A stretch of DNA of 32,723 nucleotides, from positions 1 through 32,723 of IMG/VR virus record IMGVR_UViG_3300005532_000246. One strand, given 5' to 3'. Below the pieces are notes generated by a model. That model saw only the letters and a list, made by a program, of their open reading frames with translations. It was not told where the DNA came from and made no database searches. Positions 388-14,228 of this stretch are shown here, piece after piece. Each line of letters opens with the position of its first letter. Within the stretch, counting starts at the first letter, position 1. This DNA is from a virus. A program made the position numbers and the translations under genes.

Positions 388-411
388 GGCCGAACTCCAA
401 GCGCGGTGCGA

Positions 412-723: not shown

Positions 724-724
724 G

Positions 725-982: not shown

Positions 983-1034
983 GGGCTCCTCCTTCTGTTG
1001 TCGATACGGCACTGGAACAGCGATTTCGATTCGC

Positions 1035-1226: not shown

Positions 1227-1408
1227 GACGGGTCGTCCTCGTTCGGAAGATCAGTGTCGATCTCCATGTCAATAAACTCGCCGCCGTCACCGTGGAGAAC
1301 GAGCACGTCCGGAGTCGCGTCGTCTGTCACGCAGACGCAAATCGTTACGCGCGCTCCATGCTTGTCGCGAAGCAACTCCGTAAACCCGGTCCAATAGGTC
1401 TCCGTCAC
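1223..1408 (-). CDS. hypothetical small acidic protein
   Basis: Protein of 61 residues, not recognised. It appears to be a small alpha/beta protein: an N-terminal helix (TGFTELLRDKHGA), a strand RVTICVCV, a second strand DVLVLHGDGG, then an acidic tail (DMEIDTDLPNEDDPS). The GTG start at 1408 overlaps the preceding stop in a GTGA junction and its own stop overlaps the next start. These tight couplings are typical of phage early operons. Confidence 0.55.
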   Translation of the reverse strand: MTETYWTGFTELLRDKHGARVTICVCVTDDATPDVLVLHGDGGEFIDMEIDTDLPNEDDPS

Positions 1409-1545
1409 GACGGCTCCTCCTTGATCTCGACGACGATGCCTTTGCCGCCGAGCCAGCGAAGTTCGTCCTCAAAGTCTTCGCGGATCGCCTGCAGGTCTTC
1501 GTCGTCGTGGTAGCTGTCGAAGTCCGCCCAGGCCGTGACTGTCAT
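1405..1545 (-). CDS. hypothetical small acidic protein
   Basis: Protein of 46 residues, not recognised. It is strongly acidic (SYHDDEDLQAIREDFEDELRWL) with a C-terminal strand (KGIVVEIKEE). The ATG at 1545 follows the upstream stop by two bases, and a GAGG-containing sequence lies close upstream. Its stop overlaps the next GTG start by four bases. Such acidic phage micro-proteins are often inhibitors of host proteins, but nothing here shows this directly. Confidence 0.5.
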   Translation of the reverse strand: MTVTAWADFDSYHDDEDLQAIREDFEDELRWLGGKGIVVEIKEEPS

Positions 1546-1547
1546 CC

Positions 1548-1871
1548 TCACGACGGATCCCGCAGGCCGAGTTCCTCCCACCAGCGGTCGGGCGCGTTCT
1601 CGCCGATCGCCGACGGGTCGAGCCGCGCCACCATCCACGGGCTCTCGAAGACGAGGCTGCCGAGCCGGTTGCCGTGGATCTTGATCATCCCCCACGGTGT
1701 GACCTCGGGGTTCGCGCGGTCCTCGACGTTCTCGTAGATCGGGATGACGGCAGTGATGGCGGCGCACGGATCCATCACCGTCTGGCAGTGGTCGCGCACC
1801 CAGCGCGCCACCTGCAGGACGGCCTCCGTCATCGCCTCGCCCGAGGCTGGGACGTGCTGCTTGTCTTCCAC
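1548..1871 (-). CDS. hypothetical protein
   Basis: Protein of 107 residues, not recognised. It begins MEDKQHVPASGEAMTEAVLQ and has an amphipathic N-terminal helix, a probable strand-rich middle (ITAVIPIYENV, PWGMIKIHG) and a Trp-rich end (DRWWEELGL). The GTG start at 1871 is supported by a purine-rich AAAGGGGAAAGG just upstream. That site belongs to the start-associated motif that recurs on this strand. The gene directly follows the DnaB-like helicase gene; no function can be given. Confidence 0.6.
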   Translation of the reverse strand: MEDKQHVPASGEAMTEAVLQVARWVRDHCQTVMDPCAAITAVIPIYENVEDRANPEVTPWGMIKIHGNRLGSLVFESPWMVARLDPSAIGENAPDRWWEELGLRDPS

Positions 1872-1876
1872 GCTGG

Positions 1877-1905
1877 CCTTTCCCCTTTCGGTTTCAGTGA
1901 AGTCG
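1877..1905 (-). promoter_or_regulatory. start-associated motif, copy C
   Basis: On the minus strand this reads GACTTCACT, a short spacer, ACCGAAAGGGG, then the GTG at 1871. It fills nearly the whole gap between the DnaB-like stop and the next start. It is one of seven related copies, all on the minus strand; here the Shine-Dalgarno part is degenerate. Confidence 0.6.
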
Positions 1906-3198
1906 TTACGGGCCGGTCTGCCAGTTGAAGCGCACCTGCGACCCGTGGAACCACAGGTTTTGGAAGCCGATCGGGCCGAATCGGTTCTTGGCGACGATCA
2001 ACTCGGCCTCCGAGCCGGGGTTGTGGTTCTTGTCGCGCTTCCGCCACACGAACCAGATCACCGCCGCTTCCGCTTCGATCATCGCGGAGCCGCGCAGCGA
2101 CGCCATCGTCGGGCGCGGGAACGGGTTGCGGATGTCGCCGGCGCGCGACAGCTGCGACAGCAGCAGCACCGGGATCTCGAACTCGCGCGCGATGTTCGTG
2201 ATCCGCCGTACGCCGTCCTCGAGCTCCTGCCGCTCATACTTCTTGTCGCGCACCCGGATCCGGTGCAGGTGGTCGACGATCAACATGTCGTAGCGCCCGC
2301 GCCGCTGGTTGGCGCGCAGCGACACCGGGTCGACCGCCTCGTCGTCGATCACCTCGAAGTTCCACGAGCCGACGGCGCTGAGCGCGTCCTCCAGCGCGGG
2401 CCGGTACTGGTCGAGGACGCGGCCGGTGCGGACCTCCGTGTACGGGATGCCGAAGGTGGAGATCAGCCGCTCGGTCAGGTCGCGGCGCGACATCTCGATC
2501 GACGCGAACCCGACCCTGGCGCCGCCCTCGCAGGCCGAGCGGAGGAACTGCAGCGCCAGCGCCGTCTTCCCGTCCCCCTGGTAGCCGCCGAGCACGTACA
2601 GCCGTGACGGCATCAGCGGCGACAAGAACTGGAACGGCGGGCTGACACCGACCATGTCCTCGTCGATCGGGTTGGCGAGCTTCTCGCGGAACTCGGCCAC
2701 CAGCTGCTCGGCGGTGAAGACGCTGTCGCTCTTGCGCTCGAGCAGGCTTTGCAGTTCGGACATCCGGCCGTCCGCCTCTTTGATCAGGTCCTCGATCGGC
2801 CCGGGCCGGTCGAAGCCGAGACGGCAGATCTCCTGGCCGGTGCGGATCAGCCCGCGCGCCAGCCAGTTCTCGCGCACCACCTTCGCCCAGTGGCGTGCGT
2901 TGGAGGCGGCCGGGACGATCATCGCGAGCTCCCGGACCCGCTCCGGTCCGCCGACATCGTTGAGGTCGCCCCGCTTGCGCAACTCGTCGGTGACGGTGAT
3001 CGCGTCAACCGACTCGCCGCGCGCGTACACGGAGACGATCGCCTGGAAGATCGCGCCGTGCGACGAGCGGTAGAACTCGCGTCCCCCGAGCAGGTCGCTG
3101 CACGCCTCGACGGCGGCCGGCGAGATCATCATCGCCCCCAACACCGACTCTTCCGCCTCAAGGCTGTGCGGGGCAAGCTGGGCAAGATCAGGCGGCAA
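1906..3198 (-). CDS. replicative DNA helicase, DnaB-like
   Basis: Protein of 430 residues matching the DnaB plan. The N-terminal helical domain starts with PHSLEAEESVLGAM (residues 10-23), the usual opening of DnaB proteins. A linker follows, then a RecA-like ATPase domain with Walker A GGYQGDGKT (204-212), Walker B MLIVDH (305-310), the sensor-like VLLLSQLSR (344-352) and the SLRGSAMIEAEA region (368-378), equivalent to the conserved Arg-finger segment. It should form the ring helicase that unwinds DNA at the phage fork. The TTG start at 3198 overlaps the upstream HTH gene by 11 bases; the DnaB signature near residue 10 supports it. No helicase loader or primase is recognised nearby. Confidence 0.93.
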   Translation of the reverse strand: MPPDLAQLAPHSLEAEESVLGAMMISPAAVEACSDLLGGREFYRSSHGAIFQAIVSVYARGESVDAITVTDELRKRGDLNDVGGPERVRELAMIVPAASNARHWAKVVRENWLARGLIRTGQEICRLGFDRPGPIEDLIKEADGRMSELQSLLERKSDSVFTAEQLVAEFREKLANPIDEDMVGVSPPFQFLSPLMPSRLYVLGGYQGDGKTALALQFLRSACEGGARVGFASIEMSRRDLTERLISTFGIPYTEVRTGRVLDQYRPALEDALSAVGSWNFEVIDDEAVDPVSLRANQRRGRYDMLIVDHLHRIRVRDKKYERQELEDGVRRITNIAREFEIPVLLLSQLSRAGDIRNPFPRPTMASLRGSAMIEAEAAVIWFVWRKRDKNHNPGSEAELIVAKNRFGPIGFQNLWFHGSQVRFNWQTGP

Positions 3199-3676
3199 GC
3201 TGCTGCTTCTGACGCCGACGACGATCCAACACCAGATCCCTCGTCACGCCGAGCACGGCCGCCGCCTGGCGGCCGGTCAAGTCTTCGAGGCCGTTGAGCG
3301 GGTCGGCGGCCTCGCAGGTCGGCGAGATCACGTCAAGGGTTGAGAAGTCGTAGTTCTCGTAGATCTCGCGCAGTTCTGGGTCGCAGTGCCAGAGCAGCGG
3401 GTCGATGAAGGTGACGATCCGGTCGGCGTTGTCGAAGCTGAGCCAGTTCTTGTTCTTGCGGCCCCTGAGGATGTCGGTGATCGTGTCCTCGTGCAGCCCG
3501 ACGAACTCCGCGAGCCGCGCGAGCGAGCCCAGCTCGCGCGCCGACGGAATGTTGTTGTGCTCGTCCATCCACCAGTTGGCGGCCACCCAGTTGCGGATCA
3601 CCCTGGCGATCGGTTCGCGCGGCACCAGTCCGCGCTGCATCGCGCTAGCCCTGTTGAGCGTCTCTCCCCTTTGCAA
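3188..3676 (-). CDS. DNA-binding protein with two HTH segments
   Basis: Protein of 162 residues. The segment SARELGSLARLAEFVGLHED followed by ITDILRGR looks like a Cro/C1-type helix-turn-helix. The C-terminal LTGRQAAAVLGVTRDLVLDRR is a second HTH-like segment of the type that reads short DNA sites. It lies directly upstream of the DnaB-like gene and could be an origin-binding or operon-regulating protein; this is inference. The TTG start at 3676 is chosen because GAGGAGG lies nine bases upstream within a start-associated motif. An ATG at 3640 is possible but has no ribosome site. It overlaps the end of the Hjc-like gene by 32 bases. Confidence 0.7.
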   Translation of the reverse strand: MQRGETLNRASAMQRGLVPREPIARVIRNWVAANWWMDEHNNIPSARELGSLARLAEFVGLHEDTITDILRGRKNKNWLSFDNADRIVTFIDPLLWHCDPELREIYENYDFSTLDVISPTCEAADPLNGLEDLTGRQAAAVLGVTRDLVLDRRRRQKQQLAA

Positions 3677-4022
3677 CGTTCTGGTCCTCCTCGGTTGGTG
3701 AAGTCACGAGTCCGGCCGCACGGCAGAGCTCGACGAGCCACATCAGGTCGACGGTCGCGTAGATGCGCCGCGACCCCTTCGGACGCTGGGCGATCACCCA
3801 GGGCCGTCCGTTCGCGTTCTTAACCGCCTGATCAACCCACGCCTGGCGCAGTTGCAGCGTCGCGTGGGCCTTGCACTCAATCGACACCGGCAGCAGGCCG
3901 CCCTCAACGCGGACGCAGTCATCGAAGCCGCCGCGCTCTCCGTTCGTGCGGCGGCGCCCGCCGAAGAGACGGCCGACGGCAAGCTCAAACGCCTTGCCGC
4001 GCGCACGGTCACGGGCGGCCAT
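3645..4022 (-). CDS. PD-(D/E)XK nuclease, Hjc/RecU-like resolvase
   Basis: Protein of 125 residues with the active-site spacing of small archaeal-type Holliday-junction resolvases and related PD-(D/E)XK nucleases. E13 lies in the first helix (KAFELAVGRLF), D34/D35 in GGFDDC, E49 and K51 in IECK, and Q57 follows in a later helix. Such enzymes cut branched DNA made during replication and recombination, metal-dependently. The ATG at 4022 overlaps the end of the methyltransferase gene by 14 bases. It could also be a general VRR-NUC-like endonuclease; the nuclease fold is more certain than the exact substrate. Confidence 0.72.
   Translation of the reverse strand: MAARDRARGKAFELAVGRLFGGRRRTNGERGGFDDCVRVEGGLLPVSIECKAHATLQLRQAWVDQAVKNANGRPWVIAQRPKGSRRIYATVDLMWLVELCRAAGLVTSPTEEDQNVAKGRDAQQG
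3686..3706 (-). promoter_or_regulatory. start-associated motif, copy B
   Basis: On the minus strand GTGACTTCACCAACCGAGGAGG precisely supplies the ribosome site of the TTG start at 3676. It lies entirely inside the coding sequence of the Hjc-like nuclease, where it encodes VTSPTEE. The motif is therefore kept even where it must also code for protein. Confidence 0.65.
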
Positions 4023-4932
4023 TGAGTCCCGCGAGTAGCGACTGCTGCCCCTCCGCGGCGGCGAGGTTGCGGCACGCGGTCTCGAAGTACGACGGCTTAA
4101 GCTCGATCCCGACGAACCGCCGGTTGTTGCGGAGCGCGCCCACGCCCTCCGATCCAATGCCGGCGAACGGCGAGAACACCAGATCGCCAGGGTTGCTCCA
4201 CAGCTTGACGGCCCGCTCGATCACCCCCAGTTGCAACGGCGCGATGTGCCGCTCGTCCTGGTTGTCGCGAGCAACGGCGGCGTTCAGAACGTCGGTTTCA
4301 CGGATCCCGCCCGGGTAGTGCTGAGACGCCCGGTACCAGACCGGGGCCGCCCATTCGATCCACTCCTCGGCGGTGATCCAACCGTCCGGGTTGCCGTACC
4401 TGTCGCTGACGCCCGCGCGGATCGGCTCAGCGTTCTCCCCCGGCTTCCGGAACTGCAACAAGTAGTCGGCGAGTGCCATGTGCATCTTCGCCGAATCTGT
4501 CGCGAGCGTCTTGAACAGCAGACCATGATCCTTCGTGCGGATCGCCTTCAGCTGCGGGTCTTTGTCGATCGTGACCTCGCCGTAGTAGATGAAGCCCGCC
4601 TGCTCCATCGCGGCGATCACGGCCCCGCGGAAGTCACGGAGGCCGGTGTAGCCGTCGAGGAACTTCACCCGAAGCGTCTGGGTGAGGTGGACGCAACAAG
4701 AGCGACCAGGCTTCAACACGCGCAGCAACTCGGGGATCAGGAACGAGAAGTGTTCAACGAGTTCGTCAACGGTGCGCGAGTTGCCCATGTCGCGCTCCGA
4801 GTCGCTGTAGACGTACATGCCGGGGAACGGCGGCGAGAACACCGCAAGACCCACCGACTCGTCTCCGATCTCGCGAGCGCGCTCGACGCAGTCGCCGAGC
4901 AGCATCGTCCACCGGTCGCCGCTTCTAGTCAC
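4009..4932 (-). CDS. DNA methyltransferase, beta class (N4-C or N6-A)
   Basis: Protein of 307 residues. Motif IV SPPF is at residues 33-36 and motif I FSPFAGIG at 253-260, followed by GIELKPSYFETA. The catalytic motif preceding the AdoMet-binding motif marks the beta class of amino-methyltransferases, and SPPF/SPPY is typical of N4-cytosine and some N6-adenine enzymes. The roughly 200-residue middle contains the target-recognition region. It would methylate phage DNA, for protection from restriction or for regulation. It starts with GTG at 4932, overlapping the helicase stop in a GTGA junction. No cognate restriction enzyme is evident; the adjacent small nuclease looks like a resolvase. Confidence 0.88.
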   Translation of the reverse strand: MTRSGDRWTMLLGDCVERAREIGDESVGLAVFSPPFPGMYVYSDSERDMGNSRTVDELVEHFSFLIPELLRVLKPGRSCCVHLTQTLRVKFLDGYTGLRDFRGAVIAAMEQAGFIYYGEVTIDKDPQLKAIRTKDHGLLFKTLATDSAKMHMALADYLLQFRKPGENAEPIRAGVSDRYGNPDGWITAEEWIEWAAPVWYRASQHYPGGIRETDVLNAAVARDNQDERHIAPLQLGVIERAVKLWSNPGDLVFSPFAGIGSEGVGALRNNRRFVGIELKPSYFETACRNLAAAEGQQSLLAGLNGRP

Positions 4933-6215
4933 GCCGCGACCGCCACCAGGTTCTCAAACATCTGCTCGGCCTGTCGTTGCTTACGCTGCACGTTGTCGAG
5001 GACGGCCTGCTCGCGGTTCGATGCGATGATCGTCACCTCCACTGGATGCGTTTGTCCGTACCGCCAGCAACGGCGGACGGCCTGGTAGTAGGACTCGTAC
5101 GAGTCGGACAGGCCGACGAACACCTGCCGGTGGCAGTGCTGCCAGTTCAGTCCCCATCCGCCGATCGACGGTTTCGTGATCAGCACGCGGACATTCCCGT
5201 TCGTGAACGCGAGCAGCCGGGTTTCCTTCTCGTCCGGGGTGTGCGCCCCGCGGACATCGACGGCGTCCGGGATCGCGGCGGCCAACGAGGTCGACTCCTC
5301 GTTCAAATCGCACCAGACGACGCAGGCTTCGTCGTGGCTGTTCACGATGTCTGCGGCGGCCCGCACGCGTTCGGCGATCGACTCGCGTCGCGCTTGCCGA
5401 CGCTCGCTGAGCGTCGACACCGGCACCGCGAACAGCCGATCCTCCGACACCGCGTCCGCGTCGACCGTCACAACAGACGTGTTGAGTGGCGGAAGCTCAA
5501 AGCCAGAAGCGTCGTAGCCAAGATCGGCGGGAGAGCGCAGAGCCACCGCCCACGACCGGATCCACCGCCAAAACTGGCTCTGCGCGTGGCCTTTCAGGCG
5601 CCAATGGGCGGCGCTGATCCCGTCGTTGATGAAGAACTCCGCGAGCATCTGCCTGCGGGTCAGCACATCCAGAAACTCGGAGTGGCCGCCAAGTTCCTCG
5701 TAGTCGTTCGGAGACGGCGTCGCGGTCGCGCACAAGCGAAATGGCACCTGCCGCGCCCACCGCGTCAGCCGCTCCCGCGTCTTGCCGTCGAAGCTCTTGA
5801 GGATCGACGACTCGTCGAGTACCACGCCCCGCCACGACAGGTCGGCGAAGCGGTCGAGCCGCTCGTAGTTCGTCACGACTATCGCCGCCGACGGGTCGAT
5901 GCCCCGGGGTTCTCGTGCCTGGACGGCCGGGACGCCGAACTTGTGTGCCTCCCGCACCGTCTGCGCCGCCACCGCTAGGGGAGCGAGCACCAGGACCTTG
6001 CCGCCGGTGTGCCCGGCTACCTGGCGCGCCCACTCCAGCTGCATCGGTGTCTTCCCGAGCCCGCACTCGGCGAAGATCGCCGCGCGGCCCTTACGGGTGG
6101 AGAACTGGACGATCTCGCGCTGGAAGTCGTACAGCATGTCCGACGGCTCGCACTCGAAGCCGGCCTCGCCGTGGGTTGCGCGCTTGCGCGCCAGGAACTC
6201 CGCGTACGTCGTCAC
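4929..6215 (-). CDS. SNF2-like superfamily 2 helicase
   Basis: Protein of 428 residues with both SF2 lobes. Seen motifs are DFQREIV near residue 30 (Q-like), Walker A GLGKT (52-56), DES box VVLDES (131-136), motif III CATATP (162-167), NGNVRVLITKPSIGGWGLNWQ (motif V region) and motif VI QAVRRCWRYGQ (378-388). The arrangement matches the compact SNF2/Rad54-like translocases of phages, which remodel DNA or protein-DNA complexes using ATP. The GTG start at 6215 overlaps the HNH gene stop by four bases. The frame stays open far upstream, but that part covers the HNH gene. The role is probably in recombination or replication restart. Confidence 0.9.
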   Translation of the reverse strand: MTTYAEFLARKRATHGEAGFECEPSDMLYDFQREIVQFSTRKGRAAIFAECGLGKTPMQLEWARQVAGHTGGKVLVLAPLAVAAQTVREAHKFGVPAVQAREPRGIDPSAAIVVTNYERLDRFADLSWRGVVLDESSILKSFDGKTRERLTRWARQVPFRLCATATPSPNDYEELGGHSEFLDVLTRRQMLAEFFINDGISAAHWRLKGHAQSQFWRWIRSWAVALRSPADLGYDASGFELPPLNTSVVTVDADAVSEDRLFAVPVSTLSERRQARRESIAERVRAAADIVNSHDEACVVWCDLNEESTSLAAAIPDAVDVRGAHTPDEKETRLLAFTNGNVRVLITKPSIGGWGLNWQHCHRQVFVGLSDSYESYYQAVRRCWRYGQTHPVEVTIIASNREQAVLDNVQRKQRQAEQMFENLVAVAA

Positions 6216-6868
6216 TCGCCGCGCTCCTCGAGTCGCGCCCCCTGAAGGATGAGCGCGTACGCGTACGTGTTGAGCGCCCACTGCCAGTGCGGTCTCTCGG
6301 TGAACTTCGGGTCGAGCGCGAGCGCCGCCGCCTCGCGAAGCTCCTCGTGCGTCTCGGCGTCGTCGATCGGGATCCGGTACGCCGACACCTTCGACTGCGG
6401 CGAGGTCTTCTTCTTCGGATGGTTGACCCGCCGCTGACAAGTCGGGCACTTCTCGCCAGGCTTCGGACGCCCGGCAACAGTGTCGTGCTCGTTCCCATCC
6501 GCGCAGAGGACAGCGAACGGGTCGTGCGCGAAGACGAGGTCGACGATCTCGACGGTGCCGTTCCACAGCAGCCGGTCACCGCGAACGACGATCGCCGCCT
6601 TGTGGCCTCCGACGCCGCCGGTGACTTCGCGGTGATGCTCGCGACAAAGCCCGACACGGTTCGGAACGAGCGTCCCGTCCGGTAGCTCAACCCACCAGCT
6701 GCGCGTCTGGTTGGAGCGCCGCCAGACGTGGTGGCCACCGCCGTCCTCGCGCAACTGGTCGCAGCCGTGAACCATGCAGTTCGGCCCCAGTTCGTAGGCT
6801 GGCAGGTCGCCGCGGTCCTTCACCTCGGTCAGCGGCGTGCCGTCAGGCGTGGTCGGGACGAGCGTCAT
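6212..6868 (-). CDS. HNH-type zinc protein, putative endonuclease
   Basis: Protein of 218 residues. The N-terminal half has C31 and C36 (CMVHGC), a His pair (GGHHVWRR, 46-47), N70 and then CREHH (C75, H78, H79), the order expected for a zinc-stabilised HNH beta-beta-alpha fold. A second CPTC pair lies further on in EKCPTCQRR. The C-terminal 70 residues are helical (ETHEELREAAALAL). It might be a nicking or structure-specific nuclease of the replication module, or a homing-type enzyme. The operon position with 4-base overlaps on both sides argues for a resident phage function. The start is ATG 6868, in an ATGA junction with the HAD gene. Confidence 0.68.
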   Translation of the reverse strand: MTLVPTTPDGTPLTEVKDRGDLPAYELGPNCMVHGCDQLREDGGGHHVWRRSNQTRSWWVELPDGTLVPNRVGLCREHHREVTGGVGGHKAAIVVRGDRLLWNGTVEIVDLVFAHDPFAVLCADGNEHDTVAGRPKPGEKCPTCQRRVNHPKKKTSPQSKVSAYRIPIDDAETHEELREAAALALDPKFTERPHWQWALNTYAYALILQGARLEERGE

Positions 6869-7212
6869 CGCCGCGTCATCTCCTTCAGCGTCAGCACGAG
6901 GTCTGTCCAGTCGCCCTCGAAGCGCAGCGCCCGGTCGTCGAGGTAGACCATCGCGAGCGGTTTGCCTTCGTCGCACCACACCGACAGACGCCCTTTCTGC
7001 AGGTCGTTGCCGAAGCCGCCGTCGTAAAGCTTGTTGAAGATCTCGCGCTCGCCCGCGGCGAAGTTGGCTCGGCAGGAGTGCACGATCACGTCGCGTCCGC
7101 TGCGGAGCAGCGCGCGGAGCGCGTTCTGCGCGCCGGGCAGCCACTCTCCCGGCGTCCCGTACTTCTTGCAGCCGACGAGCGTGTCGTCCCAGTCGATGGC
7201 GATCGTCGGCAT
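6865..7212 (-). CDS. HAD-superfamily phosphatase
   Basis: Protein of 115 residues with the four HAD motifs: DWDDT (D7, D9) as nucleophile and acid/base, HS46C as motif II, K84 in DEGKP as motif III, and LDDR (D92-D93) as motif IV. The short length and lack of a large cap domain suggest a compact phosphatase acting on a nucleotide or on a DNA/RNA end. A role in nucleotide metabolism or DNA-end processing is inferred from the operon. The ATG at 7212 shares a base with the preceding stop (TAATG), so the frame upstream of it is not used. Confidence 0.82.
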   Translation of the reverse strand: MPTIAIDWDDTLVGCKKYGTPGEWLPGAQNALRALLRSGRDVIVHSCRANFAAGEREIFNKLYDGGFGNDLQKGRLSVWCDEGKPLAMVYLDDRALRFEGDWTDLVLTLKEMTRR

Positions 7213-8171
7213 TACGTCCGCCACCAGACGCAGGAGGGGCGGAAGCCGCAAAAATGGCAAGCCCAAGGATGGGTGATCGCGCCAGGCCAGGCCGTGTCCG
7301 GCCCGTACTCGAGGTAGAGCAGCGTCATCTGCCGGACAACGCGCTGCAGCAGCTTCGTTGTCGTCTGGAGCGCCTGCTCGGACGGGTCGATCGCCAGCTG
7401 GGGCGCGTCGACCGGCGTCACCACCTGCGGGTCTTTCGTCTTGGCGGCGACGTGATACTCGACGCGCCGGCCTGTCTCAAGCTGGTAGAGGCGCGCCTGC
7501 AGCAGCCATTCCGGCTTGAGCTCGCGCTTCACCGCCTTCGCGGTCTTGTAGTCGACCACCAGGTCGAGCGAGTGGTAGTTGTCGTCCCACGGCGTGCCGT
7601 GCTCGCGCGTGCCGACGAGATCGATTCCGCCGACGAACGGAACCGGAACCCCGTCGATCATGGTGCGGAAGCGGTGCTCGACCGCCTCCGGCTGCAGCGT
7701 GGGGGCGACCTGCGTCCGGTAGAGGGCGGACAGGTCGGCGCCCTTCTTGCGGATCGTGTCCGGCTTCTCGCGCTCGTCCCAGACGACCTCGTTTACGCCG
7801 CCGTACCGCTCCAACTCCTGCTCCCAGCCGGCGTGGAACGCCTCGACGACCGCCTCGACCGCCAGATCCTCGTGCGTGTCGATCTTCTGGCGGAAGTTCG
7901 TCTCCTGCGCGAAGTGGAAGCCGGTGCCGAGGATCTGCGCGCCGCCCGGCCGCTCCTTCAGGCCGAGGATGTACCGCTGCCGGTACTGCTCCGGGCAGCG
8001 CATGAACATCGACACCTGTGTCGCGCTCAGGTGGTCGACGCCCGCGATCGGCCATGCCCCTGGAAGGCCACCAGAGCCGTTCTCGCGGCTTTCCGGAAGT
8101 AGGGCGACCGAATCCTCGGGTGGCGGTGCCTGGGGGCTCACGAGAGCCCCCAGGAAGTCGGCAGCGTCCAT
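7212..8171 (-). CDS. RecB/Cas4-type PD-(D/E)XK nuclease with Fe-S cysteines
   Basis: Protein of 319 residues. It begins the nuclease fold with LSATQVSMFMRCPEQYR and shows H86, D184 (GGIDL), D207-Y-K209 (VVDYKTAK) and QARLYQ (Q225, Y229), the RecB-family catalytic set. C59 plus a C-terminal cluster C305, C308, C314 (CHFCGFRPSC) match the four cysteines that hold a 4Fe-4S cluster in AddB and Cas4 nucleases. The likely role is 5' or 3' exonuclease trimming of DNA ends for recombination, paired with the ssDNA-binding protein encoded just before it. No cas1/cas2 or CRISPR array is present, so a CRISPR role is not supported. ATG start 8171, one base after the preceding stop. Confidence 0.86.
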   Translation of the reverse strand: MDAADFLGALVSPQAPPPEDSVALLPESRENGSGGLPGAWPIAGVDHLSATQVSMFMRCPEQYRQRYILGLKERPGGAQILGTGFHFAQETNFRQKIDTHEDLAVEAVVEAFHAGWEQELERYGGVNEVVWDEREKPDTIRKKGADLSALYRTQVAPTLQPEAVEHRFRTMIDGVPVPFVGGIDLVGTREHGTPWDDNYHSLDLVVDYKTAKAVKRELKPEWLLQARLYQLETGRRVEYHVAAKTKDPQVVTPVDAPQLAIDPSEQALQTTTKLLQRVVRQMTLLYLEYGPDTAWPGAITHPWACHFCGFRPSCVWWRT

Positions 8172-8172
8172 C

Positions 8173-8694
8173 TCAGAACTGAGCGGTCGCGGCCTGCGCC
8201 GGGGAGGAGGCGGCGCTACCTGCGGCGGACGAGCCGCCTTCGATGTAGCCGACGAACAGGTCGGCGATCGCGAACAGCTGCACCGGCGACGAGACGACGG
8301 CGATGCCGGCGGCGTGCGCCTCGATCGCGCGCGCGAGCGCAGCCGAGCGGTTGATCACCGCGCCGCGGCTGTCGCCGGCCGGGGCCGCCGCTGCGGCCTG
8401 CGGTGCGGCCACCTGTGGCGCCGCGACCTGGGCCGCCGGCGCGCCCTGTGCGGCCTCGATCGAGGTGAGGACGTTGTTCGTGCGTGTCTGCCCGTTGCGG
8501 TCGAGGCGATCCTGGGTCTCCCAGGTGATCGACACCGGCTGGTTGAGCAGTCCGTCCGCGATCTGCTGAAGCTCCGGCTTGAAGGTCTGGTACTTGTTGC
8601 CGCCAGCGTCCCTGTAGGCCTTCAGCACCCAGGGGCCGCTCTGGCCCTGGCCGGTCTTCACTTCGACGCCCGTCAGTGTGACCACCTGCTGCAT
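8173..8694 (-). CDS. OB-fold-like ssDNA-binding protein (putative)
   Basis: Protein of 173 residues and first gene of the leftward operon. The first 75 residues look like a beta-barrel (VVTLTGVEVKTG, GPWVLKAYRD, PVSITWETQD) as in small OB-fold proteins. A flexible Ala/Pro/Gln region (about 85-110) follows, then a helical C-terminal part ending in a low-complexity tail. This barrel-plus-disordered-tail plan and pairing with a RecB-like nuclease suggest an SSB or recombination mediator. The start is ATG 8694 because GGGAGGA lies nine bases upstream inside a start-associated motif; the frame is open further upstream but lacks a ribosome site. Family identity is not certain. Confidence 0.55.
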   Translation of the reverse strand: MQQVVTLTGVEVKTGQGQSGPWVLKAYRDAGGNKYQTFKPELQQIADGLLNQPVSITWETQDRLDRNGQTRTNNVLTSIEAAQGAPAAQVAAPQVAAPQAAAAAPAGDSRGAVINRSAALARAIEAHAAGIAVVSSPVQLFAIADLFVGYIEGGSSAAGSAASSPAQAATAQF

Positions 8695-8703
8695 GTCGGC
8701 GTT

Positions 8704-8728
8704 CCTCCCTACGGTCTGGTGAAGTCGC
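8704..8728 (-). promoter_or_regulatory. start-associated motif, copy A
   Basis: On the minus strand this reads GCGACTTCACC, spacer, ACCGTAGGGAGG, nine bases before the ATG at 8694. It is the most upstream copy of the motif in the replication operon and lies in non-coding DNA. Confidence 0.6.
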
Positions 8729-8895
8729 CAGCGCCACGTCGGAAGCGAAGTGGAAGCTGACTGGCAGAACCGTATCGGCCCGGTCGGACGGAGTAAATGG
8801 GCCACCTAGCCCAACTTCAACTTTGCCGATTGCGAGAGTTGAGGGCCGTGCCGTCAGGAGGGCGTAGGGTTGCCTCCGGAGCACCCAATACACTT

Positions 8896-8915
8896 CCCCC
8901 CGGCCCTCCGGGGGG
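8896..8915. repeat. GC-rich hairpin
   Basis: A perfect 8-bp stem (CCCCCCGG with CCGGGGGG) with a CCCT loop. No T tract follows on either strand, so it is more likely an RNA structure in the leader of the leftward operon, or an attenuator, than a simple terminator. Confidence 0.5.
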
Positions 8916-8920
8916 TGTGA

Positions 8921-8989
8921 AGGTCCTTGTATGTATGTAGGTCCTTCAGAGGTTAAATACTCTCTAAGGAGAAGTTCTTAAGGACCTAC
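8921..8989. repeat. operator-like AGGTCCTT repeats
   Basis: AGGTCCTT occurs at 8921-8928 and 8939-8946 in the same direction and in inverted form at 8980-8987. The last two form a 10-bp perfect inverted repeat (GTAGGTCCTT 8937-8946, AAGGACCTAC 8980-8989). Placement before a repressor-like gene suggests operators for the XRE protein or another phage regulator. Confidence 0.5.
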
Positions 8990-9033
8990 ACTAACCTTCT
9001 GGTCTAGATACGAGCCGACCGCTCGCTCAGGCG

Positions 9034-9062
9034 TTGACCTTCCGATGGGCTTCGTGTACGGT
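9034..9062 (+). promoter_or_regulatory. rightward promoter of the repressor gene
   Basis: TTGACC at 9034-9039 and TACGGT at 9057-9062 are separated by 17 bases, a textbook spacing for the housekeeping sigma factor of high-GC bacteria. Transcription would start near 9069, giving a leader of about 50 bases before the TTG at 9120. The GTTAAC site at 9064-9069 sits on the start point and could be an operator. Confidence 0.65.
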
Positions 9063-9119
9063 CGTTAACGCGGGATCGTGTTAACGATCAAGACAACTCT
9101 TCGGGAAGGGGAACTCGGC

Positions 9120-9458
9120 TTGGACGGGACAGCTGCGGACGACGACTACCGGATCGAGGTCGGCCGTCGGATAGCCCAAGCTCGTAAAGAAGCCCAGATG
9201 AGGCAGGAGGACCTCGCCAGAGAGCTCGGGGTGAGCGTCCGCACGATCTACGCGTATGAGTCCGGAGAGACGCCTCCCCACCGGAACCTTCGCCAGATCG
9301 CGGACATCCTCGGCCGCCCCGTTGACTGGTTCCGTGATGAACCAGAACTCGCGGTCGACCTAGCCGACATCCGGGAGGCCGCTGCCGAGACGGTCGCGCT
9401 CCTGCGCGAGATCCGCGAGGAGGTTCGCGGCCTGCGGGCCGATCTGAAGCTGGCCTAG
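9120..9458 (+). CDS. XRE-family repressor-like regulator
   Basis: Protein of 112 residues. An XRE/Cro-C1 helix-turn-helix spans about residues 12-72, with the core RQEDLARELGVSVRTIYAYE and the usual PVDWF end. A coiled coil follows (about 78-110, LADIREAAAETVALLREIRE) that should drive dimerisation. It likely binds operators in the adjacent control region and decides between leftward and rightward transcription. The start is set at TTG 9120 because GGAAGGGG lies eight bases upstream. A longer frame from GTG 9078 would begin within about nine bases of the predicted transcription start and would be leaderless, so it stays possible. No peptidase domain is present, so control by RecA-type self-cleavage is not expected. 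Confidence 0.8.
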   Translation: MDGTAADDDYRIEVGRRIAQARKEAQMRQEDLARELGVSVRTIYAYESGETPPHRNLRQIADILGRPVDWFRDEPELAVDLADIREAAAETVALLREIREEVRGLRADLKLA

Positions 9459-9463
9459 ACCCT

Positions 9464-9487
9464 CCCTCGGCACGGGCCTCTACGGTG
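9464..9487 (+). promoter_or_regulatory. repeated promoter cassette, copy 1
   Basis: A 24-base block beginning CCCTCGG and ending CTCTACGGTG recurs at 15659-15682 with two mismatches. TACGGT at 9481-9486 fits a -10 box. The GTG start at 9495 lies eight bases downstream, about where transcription should begin. The following gene has no ribosome site, which suggests leaderless expression. Confidence 0.6.
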
Positions 9488-9494
9488 CCCGGCC

Positions 9495-10298
9495 GTGACT
9501 CCCGCCGAGCGTCGCCGCGAGAACGTCCGCATCCTGCTTCGGACGCTGAACGAGCCGTACAGCCCGAAGTCCTCGCGGCCGCTCGCCGAAAGCGGACTCG
9601 CCCCTTCCCGCTTCATCCCCTGCCCCGACTGCCGCCACAACCGGCGCGTCGGACGCGGCTGCCTCGCCTGCGACGGACGCGGCTACCGTCCTCGCCGCAA
9701 GGGCGATCCGGAGGTCGACGGCTACGCCGCCAAGCCGGTGACGGTCGAGCCGAAGCCGCGCGTCTCGCCGATGTCGCCGGCGCGCCTCGACGCCGCGCTC
9801 GCCGCCGTCACTCGCAACCTGCTCGCCTACGACGGCCTGATCGACCCGTACGAGGCCGAGGGATGGGAGCGGGAAGTCGAGGCCCGCAACCGCAGCGGCT
9901 CCTACCAGGCGCTCGAGCGGGCACTTGACCGGATGCAGCTAGAGATCCCGCTCGGCCGTTCGTTCATCACCTGGGTCTACTTCAGCGGCCTAGCGCCGCG
10001 CCTGAACGCCGCCGGCCGCCACCTCGACGACCTGCTCGTCGACTGGCTCGCGGCGCGGATGCCGGGGAAGATCTGGATCCCGAAGCCCTACTTCGACGCG
10101 CAGCAGGCCGAGCGCGCGCAGCGGGTGCGCGAGCTTTTGGCCGCCGGCTGGGAGGAGGACGCGATCTGCGCCGAGGTGGGGGTGAGCCGGAAGCTGGTAC
10201 GCGCCGAAGCTGCTGCTACACTTCGGGTGTCGTCAACGACCCGTGCCGGCAACGGTGAAGCGCCGGTGAGACAGAGCCTTGGCGCTAGCCATGCCTGA
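9495..10298 (+). CDS. zinc-ribbon and HTH protein, unknown function
   Basis: Protein of 267 residues. C43, C46, C56 and C59 (CPDC and CLACDGRGY) form a DnaJ-like zinc-ribbon pattern. The middle (about 95-190) is helical. The C-terminal region around residues 208-240, RELLAAGWEEDAICAEVGVS then RKLVRAEA, is a clear helix-turn-helix. The combination suggests a DNA-binding regulator of the rightward operon. The start is GTG 9495, directly after a TACGGT promoter and without a Shine-Dalgarno. It follows the repressor gene by 36 bases. No named family is recognised. Confidence 0.7.
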   Translation: MTPAERRRENVRILLRTLNEPYSPKSSRPLAESGLAPSRFIPCPDCRHNRRVGRGCLACDGRGYRPRRKGDPEVDGYAAKPVTVEPKPRVSPMSPARLDAALAAVTRNLLAYDGLIDPYEAEGWEREVEARNRSGSYQALERALDRMQLEIPLGRSFITWVYFSGLAPRLNAAGRHLDDLLVDWLAARMPGKIWIPKPYFDAQQAERAQRVRELLAAGWEEDAICAEVGVSRKLVRAEAAATLRVSSTTRAGNGEAPVRQSLGASHA

Positions 10299-10647
10299 AA
10301 TCGGACGCGGCCACACGGATCTGGGGCAGAAGACGGTTTCGTGGCGCGGCGTTAGCGCCGTCTACAGCGTCGCGGAGTGCGACATCATGCGGGCGCTACC
10401 CCCACGCGAGGCCGCGATCGTGCACGAGCTCAAGGCGCTCTTTGGCGGGGAGATCCTCGACCCTGGCGAGCCAGTCGCCGCTCAGGACCGGCCGCCCGAG
10501 CGCCTTCCAGAACCGGCGGCCGTAGCATCCATCCCCACCCTTGCCCGCAAACGCGGCGAGCCACTACCCGGCCAGACGGCCCTAGGAGTCGACGTTGGCG
10601 CTTCCCTCCGATACTCCGAGCCCGCTGCAGGCGCAGGCGGCCGATAG
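10279..10647 (+). CDS. hypothetical protein
   Basis: Protein of up to 122 residues, not recognised. The centre (VAECDIMRALPPREAAIVHE then LKALFGG) is helical; the C-terminal half is Pro/Ala/Gly-rich and probably unstructured. The frame opens with TTG 10279, with an ATG at 10291 as alternative; both overlap the upstream gene end. Ribosome sites are poor for either, and the end overlaps the next gene by 53 bases. It is a plausible but not a sure gene. Confidence 0.45.
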   Translation: MALAMPEIGRGHTDLGQKTVSWRGVSAVYSVAECDIMRALPPREAAIVHELKALFGGEILDPGEPVAAQDRPPERLPEPAAVASIPTLARKRGEPLPGQTALGVDVGASLRYSEPAAGAGGR

Positions 10648-11086
10648 GTTCGCGAATCAGCGGATGGCGCAGATGGTTCGCGCCGGCCTGCTAGCCGCCG
10701 TCCCTCACACCGCCGACCCGGCAGCCGCTTGGCGCCAGATGTCGGCCGGGTTCGCCTCTCACCCCGACCAGTTGCAGGAGTTCCTTGCTGCGGGCCATTC
10801 GCCGCAGCTGGCCTCCGAGCACGGGGCGGGCGCTGGTGCCGCCACCCCCGCGATCGCGCCCGCCACGACATCGGCGGCCGCGCCGCTCAACGTGCACCTT
10901 CCCGCAACGCTGCTCGCCGGTCCGTCCGCGATCGGCGACGCGCTCCACGGAAACCCTGGCGGCGCGCCAGTGCATCCCGCGTTTCAGGCCGCCGCCCAGG
11001 TGATCGCGCACCTGCAGACGCTCGCGCAGCAAGTGGCGAGCCGGGCGCACCAGATCGCCGATACCGACTACCAGCGCGGCCTGTAA
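10595..11086 (+). CDS. hypothetical Ala-rich protein
   Basis: Protein of 163 residues, not recognised. It has an N-terminal helical part (QAADRFANQRMAQMVRAGLL), a low-complexity Ala/Gly/Thr/Pro middle (about 75-105) and a C-terminal helix (AAAQVIAHLQTLAQQVASRA). TTG 10595 is chosen because AGGAG lies six bases upstream. It ends the short rightward operon, ten bases before a bidirectional terminator. The composition resembles phage structural or internal proteins, but the position next to regulators gives no clear role. Confidence 0.6.
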   Translation: MALPSDTPSPLQAQAADRFANQRMAQMVRAGLLAAVPHTADPAAAWRQMSAGFASHPDQLQEFLAAGHSPQLASEHGAGAGAATPAIAPATTSAAAPLNVHLPATLLAGPSAIGDALHGNPGGAPVHPAFQAAAQVIAHLQTLAQQVASRAHQIADTDYQRGL

Positions 11087-11096
11087 GAGAAACAAA

Positions 11097-11130
11097 AGGG
11101 CCGCCCCCCGTTTGCTCGGGAAACGGCCCT
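11097..11130. terminator. bidirectional terminator
   Basis: An AGGGCCG (11097-11103) and CGGCCCT (11124-11130) stem with internal GTTT/AAAC pairing. On the plus strand it is followed by CGTTTTCGTT and on the minus strand by TTTTGTTT. It separates two convergent operons, ending at 11086 (plus) and 11147 (minus), exactly where a two-way terminator is expected. Confidence 0.8.
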
Positions 11131-11146
11131 CGTTTTCGTTCCGGGA

Positions 11147-12055
11147 CTACCCCACCGGGTCGCCCTGCCGGTCGACCTCCTCAACCACCCGCAACTCGCG
11201 CGCCTTCACCTTGTCGTCGATCACAACCAGATCGGTGAGGCGGGCCTTGACCAGCACGTAGCGCGTCGCGCCGCTGTTGTACGTCGCCGCCATCGCAGGA
11301 CTCGGCGACGCGTGCAGGCCACCACCGCAGACCGGATCCGGGTTGAAGTCGGGAGCCTTCTGCTTCGTGCCGGGTGTGTAGAAGATCCCGGCGGCTCGCG
11401 CCTTCGGCGTTGACAGGTCGTCGTCGACTGCCTTGTAGAGCGTCGCGAAGCCGCGCCGCACCTCGACGCCGTGATACTCGCACCACTCGGCCGGCGACAT
11501 GTCAAGGACATCGGGTACGTCGATGACTACGCCGCCCTTGACCGTCCCGCTGTGTCCGGGCGTCCGGTGTAGCGCGGCGTACTTCGACGCCTCGGCGTGC
11601 GAGTAGCCCCAGAGCACGGCGTGCGAGGAGCCCCTGAGCACGGCGTGCGAGGAGTCCCTGAGCACGGCGTGCGAGGAGCCCGAGAGCTCGGCGTGCGAGG
11701 AGTCCCTGAGCGCGGCGTGCGAGGAGCCCCAGAGCACGGCGTGCGAGTAGCCCCAGAGCACGGCGTGCGAGTAGCCCCAGAGCACGGCGTGCGAGGAGTC
11801 CCAGAGCTCGGCGTGCGAGTAGCCCCAGAGCACGGCGTGCGAGGAGTCCCTGAGCACGGCGTGCGAGGAGTCCCTGAGCTCGGCGTGCGAGGAGTCCCTG
11901 AGCACGGCGTGCGAGGAGCCCCTGAGCACGATGTCTTGCGCGTTGCGCACTACCAACGGCGCAGTGCGTGTGCCGCCGAGTACGACGATCGGTTCGTTGG
12001 GGGGGCGCTTCTTTAGGGCCGCGTCGAGTTCGGCCTGTGTCTTGACCTCAATCAC
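11147..12055 (-). CDS. octapeptide-repeat protein with conserved C-terminal domain
   Basis: Protein of 302 residues. A short N-terminal region (1-46, TQAELDAALKKRPPNEPIVV) leads into 13 exact-length octapeptide repeats (47-150) of the form SSHAVLRD / YSHAVLWG. Position 3 is always His and position 6 nearly always Leu, as expected of a stacked beta-helix solenoid. The C-terminal domain (about 175-302) contains FATLYKAVDDD and VCGGGLHASPSP, which resembles a domain seen in many actinophage accessory proteins. Function is unknown; a DNA-mimic or adaptor role for the solenoid is speculation. The GTG at 12055 overlaps the zinc-finger gene stop and uses AAAGGAGA as ribosome site. Repeat number is likely to vary between strains. 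Confidence 0.8.
   Translation of the reverse strand: MIEVKTQAELDAALKKRPPNEPIVVLGGTRTAPLVVRNAQDIVLRGSSHAVLRDSSHAELRDSSHAVLRDSSHAVLWGYSHAELWDSSHAVLWGYSHAVLWGYSHAVLWGSSHAALRDSSHAELSGSSHAVLRDSSHAVLRGSSHAVLWGYSHAEASKYAALHRTPGHSGTVKGGVVIDVPDVLDMSPAEWCEYHGVEVRRGFATLYKAVDDDLSTPKARAAGIFYTPGTKQKAPDFNPDPVCGGGLHASPSPAMAATYNSGATRYVLVKARLTDLVVIDDKVKARELRVVEEVDRQGDPVG
11606..11917 (-). repeat. 24-bp tandem repeat, 13 units
   Basis: Thirteen in-frame 24-bp units encode the octapeptide solenoid. Units differ mostly as whole blocks: RD versus WG at the end and S versus Y at the start, suggesting shuffling by slippage or recombination. As the period is a multiple of three, the opposite strand is also open throughout, giving a spurious repetitive frame. 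Confidence 0.9.
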
Positions 12056-12297
12056 TTGAGGGTCTCCTTTCGGTAGGTGAAGCCCTGACGGGCCGCTTGC
12101 GCGGGCGACGCCCGTAGGACCGCCATTTCCTTCTTGGCGGCCTCGGCGGCTAGCACGGCGTCTCGGCTGTGTCTGCGGGCGTGGCGCCGTAGGAGCGTCT
12201 CACGTGTCGCCGGCGATGCTGTGTGCCCGCACCAGATGCAGCGAAGCTCAATCGTCCCGCGCTGAACGAGGTGGTCGAATCCGTACTTGTCAGGCAT
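12052..12297 (-). CDS. C2H2-type zinc-finger protein
   Basis: Protein of 81 residues with CIWC followed by RRHARRH, a Cys2-His2-like spacing (C-x2-C-x13-H-x4-H) typical of small nucleic-acid-binding fingers. The rest is helical and basic/alanine-rich (SRDAVLAAEAAKKEMAVLRA). It may bind DNA or RNA and act as a regulator. ATG 12297 has GGAGGA upstream and overlaps the preceding gene by 8 bases. Its last codons carry a start-associated motif used by the next gene, with which it overlaps by four bases. Confidence 0.72.
   Translation of the reverse strand: MPDKYGFDHLVQRGTIELRCIWCGHTASPATRETLLRRHARRHSRDAVLAAEAAKKEMAVLRASPAQAARQGFTYRKETLK
12062..12089 (-). promoter_or_regulatory. start-associated motif, copy D
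   Basis: On the minus strand CAGGGCTTCACCTACCGAAA runs into GGAG, upstream of GTG 12055. It lies inside the zinc-finger gene, coding for GFTYRKE, so the motif and protein sequence overlap. Confidence 0.65.
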
Positions 12298-12427
12298 CGG
12301 ATTCCTCCGCGGCTTCCGGCTCGGGCGGCTCCAGGGAGTCGCAGTAGTCGGCGAACGTCTTCCGTTCGTGGTTGAGACTTGCCGACCAGCCGAGCAGTAG
12401 GTTTGCGTCGAAGAGGCGGTCGTCCAT
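12290..12427 (-). CDS. hypothetical micro-protein
   Basis: Protein of 45 residues starting MDDRLFDANLLLGW and ending in an acidic tail (EPPEPEAAEESDA). Not recognised. ATG 12427 follows the upstream stop by two bases, and its end overlaps the zinc-finger start by eight bases. This unbroken packing and the acidic-tail composition support it as a real gene despite its size. Confidence 0.5.
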   Translation of the reverse strand: MDDRLFDANLLLGWSASLNHERKTFADYCDSLEPPEPEAAEESDA

Positions 12428-12429
12428 CG

Positions 12430-12624
12430 CTAGTTGACCTCCTCGCCGTGGATGCGGAACGTGTGCCCGGCGAAGTCGCGAAGCTCGAACGTCGCGCCGC
12501 TGGCGGACAGCCTGACGATGTGACGGCCCGCGCGCTCCTTCAGGCGCTTGCGCGCCGTCGCGATGTGCGCGGTGACGGCGACAAGGTGCTGTTGCCCGTC
12601 GATGATGACGTAGCTGTGATCCAC
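12430..12624 (-). CDS. hypothetical small protein
   Basis: Protein of 64 residues, probably beta-rich (SYVIIDGQQHLVAVTAH then a helix TARKRLKERA and strands RHIVRLSASGATFELRD). It has the look of a small SH3- or barrel-like fold but no known family is seen. The GTG at 12624 is fixed by AGGAGG eight bases upstream, part of a start-associated motif. The open frame further upstream runs through the hairpin region and is not coding. Confidence 0.62.
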   Translation of the reverse strand: MDHSYVIIDGQQHLVAVTAHIATARKRLKERAGRHIVRLSASGATFELRDFAGHTFRIHGEEVN

Positions 12625-12631
12625 CCTGGTT

Positions 12632-12660
12632 TCCTCCTTCGGTGGTGGGTGAAGCCCTGA
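12632..12660 (-). promoter_or_regulatory. start-associated motif, copy E
   Basis: The minus strand carries TCAGGGCTTCACCCACCACC followed by GAAGGAGG, nearly identical to copy F. The motif follows a 13-bp hairpin directly and precedes the GTG at 12624. Confidence 0.75.
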
Positions 12661-12703
12661 CCCTCCCGGCGCGGGGAGGGGAACTGGGATCGCGCCGGGA
12701 GGG
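12661..12703. repeat. 13-bp perfect hairpin
   Basis: CCCTCCCGGCGCG at 12661-12673 pairs perfectly with 12691-12703. Without a T tract it is not a classical terminator, but it lies directly before a start-associated motif on the minus strand, between two leftward genes. Confidence 0.7.
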
Positions 12704-12736
12704 TTCGCGTTCACACGGCGGGTGTAAACGCGAACC
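12702..12736. repeat. 15-bp hairpin downstream of the 58-residue gene
   Basis: GGTTCGCGTTCACAC (12702-12716) pairs with GTGTAAACGCGAACC (12722-12736) with a single mismatch and a five-base loop. It starts six bases after the leftward gene ending at 12743 and overlaps the next hairpin by two bases. It is probably a terminator or mRNA 3' end stabiliser. Confidence 0.65.
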
Positions 12737-12742
12737 GTGCGC

Positions 12743-12919
12743 CTAGGGCGCGAGATCTACGCGGTGCGGCCAGACGCGCCAGGCGTCGAAAGACTGAGGC
12801 CACGACTCTTCGCCGTGGTAGGGGCAGTCGGGGCGGGCGTCGTCTTCGTCGCAGGGACAGACGAGCTCGGCTGCACGCTCGCGCGCCGCCCGGATCCGCT
12901 CGCAGGCGGTCGGTTTCAT
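12743..12919 (-). CDS. small Cys-rich protein
   Basis: Protein of 58 residues: MKPTACERIRAARERAAEL, then CPCDEDDARPDCPYHGEE, then a Trp-rich end. The cluster C21, C23, C32 with H35 could bind zinc. The ATG at 12919 has AAGGAGG upstream within start-associated motif copy F, which makes it a convincing gene despite its length. It stands alone between two hairpins, like a single-gene cassette. Function unknown. Confidence 0.62.
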   Translation of the reverse strand: MKPTACERIRAARERAAELVCPCDEDDARPDCPYHGEESWPQSFDAWRVWPHRVDLAP

Positions 12920-12924
12920 GGGAA

Positions 12925-12952
12925 TCCTCCTTAGTGGTGGGTGAAGCCCTGA
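12925..12952 (-). promoter_or_regulatory. start-associated motif, copy F
   Basis: The minus strand carries TCAGGGCTTCACCCACCAC followed by TAAGGAGG and the ATG at 12919. It directly follows a 12-bp hairpin (12952-12980). Confidence 0.75.
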
Positions 12953-12980
12953 GGGGCCGCGCCCAGAAGGCGCGGCCCCT
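12952..12980. repeat. 12-bp perfect hairpin
   Basis: AGGGGCCGCGCC (12952-12963) and GGCGCGGCCCCT (12969-12980) with a five-base loop. It abuts motif copy F on the minus strand, the same hairpin-then-motif order as copy E. Confidence 0.7.
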
Positions 12981-13372
12981 TGTGGTGCGGTCGTGTGCTC
13001 TCGCTTCGTATGGTGCGTTAGGTCAGTAGACGCGACTCAAGCACCACCTCCCTTCGCGCCTCCCTTGCGTTGAGTGTGAAGCCCTGACGCCTCGGACCGG
13101 CTCGCCGTGACGCAACTCACGGCTTCCGGGCGCGTTTCGACCCTTGCGGGGAATGCAAGCGAACCGGGCGGGTCGACCGTCAGCGTTTACACGCGCCAAC
13201 GGCCCTGCCTGCCGGCAGTCGTCAGAGGGCTCCCGGCTCGCTCCCCCAAAAGGAGAAGGGTGAGGGGACGGCCCACGGCTTCGCCGGTGAGCTTGTCCTC
13301 CTCCTCAACCCTGCCGAACAAACCGCGCCTCTTCGAGGCGGGGCACTGGGGATCGCCAGCGGCGGCCCTGGT
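12981..13372. other. intergenic region with orphan motif copy G
   Basis: No convincing gene is seen. A seventh start-associated motif lies at 13059-13088 on the minus strand (CAGGGCTTCAC, spacer, AAGGGAGG). It is followed only by an 8-codon frame from a GTG, so it may mark a decayed gene or a leader peptide. A 7-bp hairpin (13104-13123) precedes it. GCGTTTACAC at 13183-13192 also occurs inverted in the hairpin at 12722-12731. This region divides the leftward accessory block from the rightward structural block and should contain divergent promoters, but none is clear. Confidence 0.5.
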
Positions 13373-13951
13373 ATGGCGAACAGGTATCGGCTGCTGCGGA
13401 TTGTCTTCCAGTTCGCCTCCGATGTCAACCCTCCTTCGCCCGAAGATCCCCCGATCCCCCGATCACCAGAGGCCAACTTGTCCCACGATCCCATCCCCAC
13501 CCCTCCCAAGCAGCAGTGCGAGGGCATCTCCAAGAAGACCGGCGAACGCTGCCAGGCCTTCGCCGTACATGGGGAGCGCTTGTGTGCCGGACATGGGGGA
13601 AAGGGCTTCGGTGCAGACCCGGCAGCAGCCGCCAAGAAGTCGGCCCAGATCCGCTCCGGGCAAGCCGAGGCACGCAGGAGAGGGCCGAGGGACGTGTACG
13701 CGCAGGCGCTGGTCGACAACGCCGAGGCGCTGGTCGCCCGGCTGCTCGCGATTGCGCTCAAAGGCGAGGATGACGGCGCTGCTTTGCGTGCAATCGAGCA
13801 GCTGACGTCCCGTGTTCTGGGCAAGCCGAAGGAGACCGTCGAGACGCACGAGCGCCCGGACGAGCTCAAGAAGATCGCCGAGATGACGCCGCAGGAGCGG
13901 GATGCGCTCTGGCGCGAGTTGATGGCGAAGGGCGTGACGCTGGACGCCTGA
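13373..13951 (+). CDS. HGG-motif protein, putative terminase small subunit
   Basis: Protein of 192 residues from ATG 13373. A Cys/His segment C49, C60, C71 and H74 (CEGISKKTGERC, then CAGHGGKG) is the motif seen at the N-terminus of many phage proteins encoded just before the terminase and often annotated as small terminase subunits. A helical region follows (VDNAEALVARLLAIAL, RAIEQLTSRVLGKPKE) that would form the oligomeric ring. It is the first gene of the structural block, about 4.5 kb before the large subunit. The first 35 residues are proline-rich and uncertain; TTG 13478, preceded by AGAGG, is an alternative start. Confidence 0.62.
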   Translation: MANRYRLLRIVFQFASDVNPPSPEDPPIPRSPEANLSHDPIPTPPKQQCEGISKKTGERCQAFAVHGERLCAGHGGKGFGADPAAAAKKSAQIRSGQAEARRRGPRDVYAQALVDNAEALVARLLAIALKGEDDGAALRAIEQLTSRVLGKPKETVETHERPDELKKIAEMTPQERDALWRELMAKGVTLDA

Positions 13952-14006
13952 TCCGGCCGTGACACCCCAACCCCGTTTTCGTGACATCCCCCCGAAGGAG
14001 CGCCGA

Positions 14007-14228
14007 ATGGCCCTCACCGACGCCGAGCGCAAGGCGAAGCAGCGCGCGTACGAGCGCGGCTACGCACGGCAGCCGTGGGACGGCGGGGTCGTTCCATCGA
14101 CGAAGCTTGAGAAGGTCAGGCAGGCGGCCTGGTGTGAGGGGCTGTGGCGGTCGCACGCCGATACCGGGCTCTTCGACTGCCGGCCGAAGCCGGGGACGGC
14201 GATCCCGAAGAAGCACGCGCGGGCGTGA
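14007..14228 (+). CDS. hypothetical small protein
   Basis: Protein of 73 residues. The opening MALTDAERKAKQRAYERGYA is a basic helix often seen in small phage DNA-associated proteins. Single cysteines (WCEG, FDC) do not make a clear zinc site. ATG 14007 is chosen over the upstream GTG 13959 because GAAGGAG lies six bases before it. Function unknown. Confidence 0.62.
   Translation: MALTDAERKAKQRAYERGYARQPWDGGVVPSTKLEKVRQAAWCEGLWRSHADTGLFDCRPKPGTAIPKKHARA

Follow-up and report, generated by a model that had tools for sequence, protein, structure and literature searches.

Seven copies of the hexamer CTTCAC upstream of a Shine-Dalgarno (SD) sequence, all on the minus strand, were found in the non-structural arm (1.9-13.1 kb) of IMGVR_UViG_3300005532_000246, a linear record of 32,723 bases (68% G+C) from an uncultured phage, called the window here. 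We give about an even chance to the reading that this repeat is a bipartite translation-initiation signal, acting in mRNA on leftward non-structural genes that start translation on their own.

The left part of the window carries mostly leftward genes and makes up the non-structural arm. These genes encode a DnaB helicase (1906-3198), a RusA-like resolvase (3645-4022), a DNA methyltransferase (4009-4932), a DNA helicase (4929-6215), an exonuclease (7212-8171) and several small uncharacterised proteins, and a divergent HTH repressor gene (9078-9458, plus strand) lies among them. Rightward genes for head and packaging fill the right half; the terminase (18424-20154), the portal (20461-22362) and the virion proteins are encoded at 18-31 kb, on the strand opposite to the CTTCAC copies. 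The gene calls are our selection among the open reading frames, and their details may be wrong. One leftward gene (11147-12055, minus strand) contains a long array of 24-nt repeats at 11521-12000, encoding eight residues each (SSHAVLRD-like), fused to DUF7666. At 14510-14560 (minus strand), CCCAGCGTTCGAATCCTGGG looks like the T-arm of a tRNA and is possibly an attachment site; ARAGORN found no tRNA in the window, and no integrase was recognised in it.

The 5' bases of the seven CTTCAC copies lie at 13081, 12946, 12654, 12082, 8724, 3703 and 1902, and the original prediction of seven minus-strand copies held at every site. Its observation that the four right and three left copies begin differently was also borne out, with TCAGGGCTTCAC in the former and NGACTTCAC in the latter. 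On alignment, T-N3-G-R-CTTCAC was common to all seven, and in six of them ACC followed CTTCAC by a few bases, with the SD after it. Six copies lead to a start codon on the minus strand. TCAGGGCTTCACCCACCACTAAGGAGG (12917-12952) leads to ATG 12919 of a 58-aa ORF (12743-12919), TCAGGGCTTCACCCACCACCGAAGGAGG (12622-12660) to GTG 12624 of a 64-aa ORF (12430-12624), and TGGCGACTTCACCAGACCGTAGGGAGG (8692-8730) to ATG 8694 of a protein without a family match (8173-8694). Two copies lie inside upstream genes, as had been noticed from the sequence: TCAGGGCTTCACCTACCGAAAGGAG (12053-12088), within gene 12052-12297, precedes GTG 12055 of the DUF7666 repeat protein, and TCGTGACTTCACCAACCGAGGAGG (3674-3709), within the RusA-like gene, precedes TTG 3676 of a protein with a weak HTH match. 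TAACGACTTCACTGAAACCGAAAGGGG (1869-1908) begins at the stop codon of the DnaB gene and precedes GTG 1871. The last copy, GTCAGGGCTTCACACTCAACGCAAGGGAGG (13059-13088, minus strand), was said to lack a start codon, and it is indeed followed by no ordinary gene start, only by a possible 9-codon ORF running from GTG 13047 to TAA 13018. With this possible leader ORF (13018-13047, minus strand) placed after the copy at 13081 and ahead of the hairpin that precedes gene 12919, the layout resembles that of an attenuator.

CTTCAC stands 21, 24, 21, 24, 21 and 25 nt before the starts at 12919, 12624, 12055, 8694, 3676 and 1871, respectively. A start codon had been predicted 5-9 bases beyond the motif; six copies do lead to one, but the SD-to-start distance at these is about 6-10 nt. 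CTTCAC is present in all seven copies, but the literal combination CTTCAC...ACCGAAGGAGG occurs just once in the window, so the SD half is loose, variable and ordinary, and CTTCAC is the strict part of the motif.

The arrangement CTTCAC-N7-12-GGRG-N7-11-DTG, which was set after the motif had been seen, matched six times in the window compared to a mean of 0.11 and a maximum of 1 in dinucleotide shuffles. The scrambled hexamer CACTTC in the same arrangement gave zero matches, and the plus strand of the window held none of the motif-SD-start arrangement. Because this pattern was defined post hoc, a test of any 6-mer is fairer. Among all 6-mers upstream of SD and start sites, CTTCAC ranked top (7 of 40), a count never reached in 200 shuffles, where the best 6-mer scored 2-5; this test is somewhat lenient, as the shuffles contained fewer SD and start sites (mean 25 vs 40). 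Unselected high-GC sequence, with seed matches left out of the counts, gave two matches to the arrangement in 285 kb of viral loci and four in 308 kb of bacterial loci, or about 7-13 per Mb vs about 180 per Mb in the window. Relative to shuffled sequence, scrambled hexamers and unselected high-GC DNA, the motif is thus strongly enriched.

The two in-gene copies, at 12082 and 3703, fall in different codon phases (ACT-TCA-CCA and GGC-TTC-ACC), and the encoded protein therefore does not explain the conservation of the motif. Paralogous genes sharing one start region were rejected as a source of the copies, as the six proteins downstream of the motif are mutually unrelated. The constraint is therefore on the nucleotides themselves. 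The motif is asymmetric, not palindromic, and stands in sense orientation throughout. In predicted RNA folds, the 12-nt block was unpaired at 0.49-0.80 compared to a background mean of 0.37, lay above that mean at all seven copies, and was more open than the same offset at starts without the motif (Mann-Whitney p = 0.001, six vs fourteen). An Rfam search gave no credible match.

Strong hairpins were predicted next to two copies on the minus strand, each ending on the initial T of its copy: AGGGGCCGCGCCT / GGGCGCGGCCCCT (12951-12979) at the 12946 copy, and ACCCTCCCGGCGCG / CGCGCCGGGAGGGT (12660-12704) at the 12654 copy. A hairpin as a component of the motif was rejected, the stems at the other five copies being weak or within background. 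The two hairpins may terminate the preceding transcript or stabilise it. A long near-perfect inverted repeat, GTTCGCGTTTACAC-CCGCC-GTGTGAACGCGAAC, lies at 12703-12740 (minus strand), and its GTGTAAACGC is found again near 13190.

The HTH repressor was considered as a binder of the motif but is not a promising one, since the sequence that it likely recognises as operator, AAGGACCT/AGGTCCTT, is different. These half-sites occur three times within 8921-8987, the probable operator region of the repressor gene (three AAGGACCT half-sites), and nowhere else in the window, which suggests that the repressor would read something other than CTTCAC. Taken together, the nucleotide-level constraint, the asymmetry and sense orientation, the separate repressor operator and the predicted openness of the block favour a role at the RNA level, related to translation.

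We then considered which genes carry the motif. There are 21 leftward genes, and 13 of the 15 without the motif overlap or abut the preceding gene, whereas four of the six with it come after a gap of at least 34 nt. The gaps before motif genes are -32, -4, 34 and 118 nt plus two long ones; the two motif genes that overlap the upstream gene are those starting at 12055 and 3676. The motif thus tends to mark starts that are unable to rely on stop-start coupling. The gene at 982 is uncoupled and has a strong SD, yet is without the motif, which, like the two overlaps, speaks against this reading. None of the rightward structural genes of the window carries the motif, so the host ribosome has no general requirement for it.

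In the mechanism that we propose, the sequence T-N3-G-R-CTTCAC, then ACC, which is short, predicted to be largely unpaired and located 21-25 nt ahead of the start codon, would serve as an open landing block, and the SD after it, complementary to the 16S tail, would form the second part. The signal would mark leftward non-structural genes that need their own initiation, as opposed to stop-start coupling, and would probably raise or time the loading of 30S subunits on these genes. Since the 16S tail cannot pair with bases that precede the SD, the exact conservation of CTTCAC demands an additional reader, which may be the 30S or a factor on it. Action on RNA, promotion of initiation and this reading of CTTCAC are what we infer from where the motif lies, its statistical excess and its predicted structure. 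The two-part model is directly testable with reporters, given that the core is strict and lies outside the SD, the spacing is almost fixed and the block is predicted to be single-stranded. A bolder version, which we put forward quite tentatively, is a translational regulon spanning the phage, in which single-stranded CTTCAC on six or seven mRNAs would be recognised by one phage factor or a modified 30S and translation of the non-structural genes switched as a set; private start codes of this kind would then have evolved in many unrelated phages.

Several of these features would also fit an RNA operator for a phage-encoded trans-acting regulator, a protein or small RNA acting as repressor or activator of translation in the manner of RegA or RegB. 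The motif is confined to one gene set in one arm, CTTCAC is strict though unable to pair with the 16S tail, several small uncharacterised proteins are encoded in the same arm, and T4 offers precedents: about 30 mRNAs have initiation regions where RegA competes with ribosomes, and early initiation regions are cut at GGAG by RegB (PMC3014915). However, RegA sites are variable, and A+U rich for RB69, unlike the strict CTTCAC block (PMC3014915), and no RNA-binding regulator was identified, with no RegA-like protein among the proteins scanned. We regard an RNA operator as possible but well short of probable. A DNA element, either an operator or part of a promoter for leftward transcription units, is unlikely. 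The related cluster K ESAS occurs with putative SigA promoters and inverted repeats (PMC11373665), and in an unrelated record (L095/L166) a repeated leader lies just downstream of a TTGACA-like box. The window motif, in contrast, is non-palindromic, always in sense orientation and at near-fixed spacing to the start codon; two of its copies are inside coding sequence, the likely repressor operator has a different sequence, and a check covering promoters of the sigma-70-like type found no -35/-10 pair at the copies.

T4-type phages carry mobile regulatory cassettes, and the copies could be footprints of recombination or gene insertion, that is, gene-start cassettes shared for the shuffling of small genes. 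The copies at 12082 and 12946 match at 23 of 25 bases, including an upstream GCGGCCC, and the four right copies fall within about 1 kb, mostly next to small genes without family matches. But the left copies, situated in the core replication genes, have no more than the functional block in common, and the spacing to the start is kept while the flanks differ; we consider such footprints quite improbable. If the copies were simply strong SDs of the ordinary kind, preceded by C/A-rich bases by chance, the variable, ordinary SD half would be accounted for, but CTTCAC lies outside the SD and exceeded every control, which leaves this explanation the least credible of all, with very little probability.

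A nucleotide comparison of bases 1-20000 of the window with phage records gave no match, and no close relatives were found through the 8173-8694 protein, the terminase or DnaB. The best DnaB relatives (L044 and L045, 44% and 42% identical) were searched for the motif and are without it; an apparent CTTCAC match in both looks, in our reading, like a tRNA anticodon arm. The pattern CAGGGCTTCAC-N-AAGGAG matched once in each of 32 viral stretches and had a second copy in none. With looser patterns, nearly all matches in viral and bacterial genomes were single copies, save for a duplicated leader, ATGGCCTTCCCCCGCTTCACCAACCCAAGGAG, before two genes in L166 (1560-1610 and 2311-2360; also in L095), whose second copy follows the TTGACA-like box. 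Two other candidates were set aside: a GGGCAGGG match in L283 is part of a different hairpin, and six same-strand dispersed repeats with core TCCGCCAATCCGTGTTC in the L047 record (L064-L069), some of them before starts, look host-type and not like start signals.

A distant relative on an 84-kb contig (L039; L059-L063, contig G005) has a start-associated set of its own. Five same-strand sites (9096, 53488, 57949, 60734 and 67276) consist of a hairpin with a constant GGGCAG loop and a variable G/C stem, followed by AGGAGGTAGTGG, with a start ATG in four of the five. Two stem pairs vary on both sides, and the covariation score was reached by 30 of 500 shuffles. This set suggests, with small counts, that phages evolve private start signals.

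Among known systems, the cluster K mycobacteriophages carry 11-19 copies of a 13-bp start-associated sequence (SAS) at the RBS position (PMC3203893), the role of which was still called ill-defined in a study of Adephagia (PMC11373665). The original prediction likened the window motif to this SAS in concept but not in sequence, and the comparison agrees. In both, copies are numerous in the non-structural arm and nearly all point the same way; they lie before unrelated genes, include an SD and are conserved beyond pairing with the 16S rRNA (PMC3203893). In the window, as in cluster K, copies are restricted to that arm, and six of seven lie immediately before gene starts in the direction of transcription. 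The cluster K SAS is, however, an uninterrupted 13-mer, GGGATAGGAGCCC, that sits 3-7 nt from the start codon, mostly an ATG, whereas CTTCAC stands 21-25 nt from ATG, GTG or TTG, upstream of a loose SD (PMC3203893). The consensus GGGATAGGAGCCC, with at most two mismatches allowed, was absent from all seven copies. Cluster K SAS genes mainly have gaps of over 50 bp to their neighbour, a trait that the gaps before motif genes do not share, three copies overlapping or sitting close to upstream genes (PMC3203893). The 17-bp imperfect inverted repeat of the ESAS also has no counterpart here, as strong hairpins occur at two copies only, with different stems.

A further SAS, present in ten copies in Microbacterium cluster EF phages, is again an unusually conserved motif at RBS positions before some starts, but neither its consensus GGGAAAGGACCCC nor the linked upstream ESAS (GTAGAG core) was seen at the window copies (PMC7302621). 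Eight gene starts of Citrobacter phage Mordin similarly share a 26-bp extended RBS-like repeat, CCAACAATCCTAAACTGGAGAATCTA, which differs in sequence, host and length (PMC4611695). The closest match in layout is the repeat of Microbacterium cluster EC phages, found 12 times in small intergenic regions, all similarly oriented and located ahead of the RBS, 21-30 bp before the start codon; the repeats of cluster EI are about 30 bp (PMC7302621). As judged by sequence, with the EC repeats compared by layout, the window motif matches none of the published consensuses. It belongs with the SAS, EF, EC and Mordin repeats in the broad start-associated class, being a phage-specific repeat at unrelated gene starts that is conserved beyond the SD. 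Repeats of this class have been described since 2011 in several groups of phages, with no function known for them, and the present set suggests that private start signals occur in uncultured phages too.
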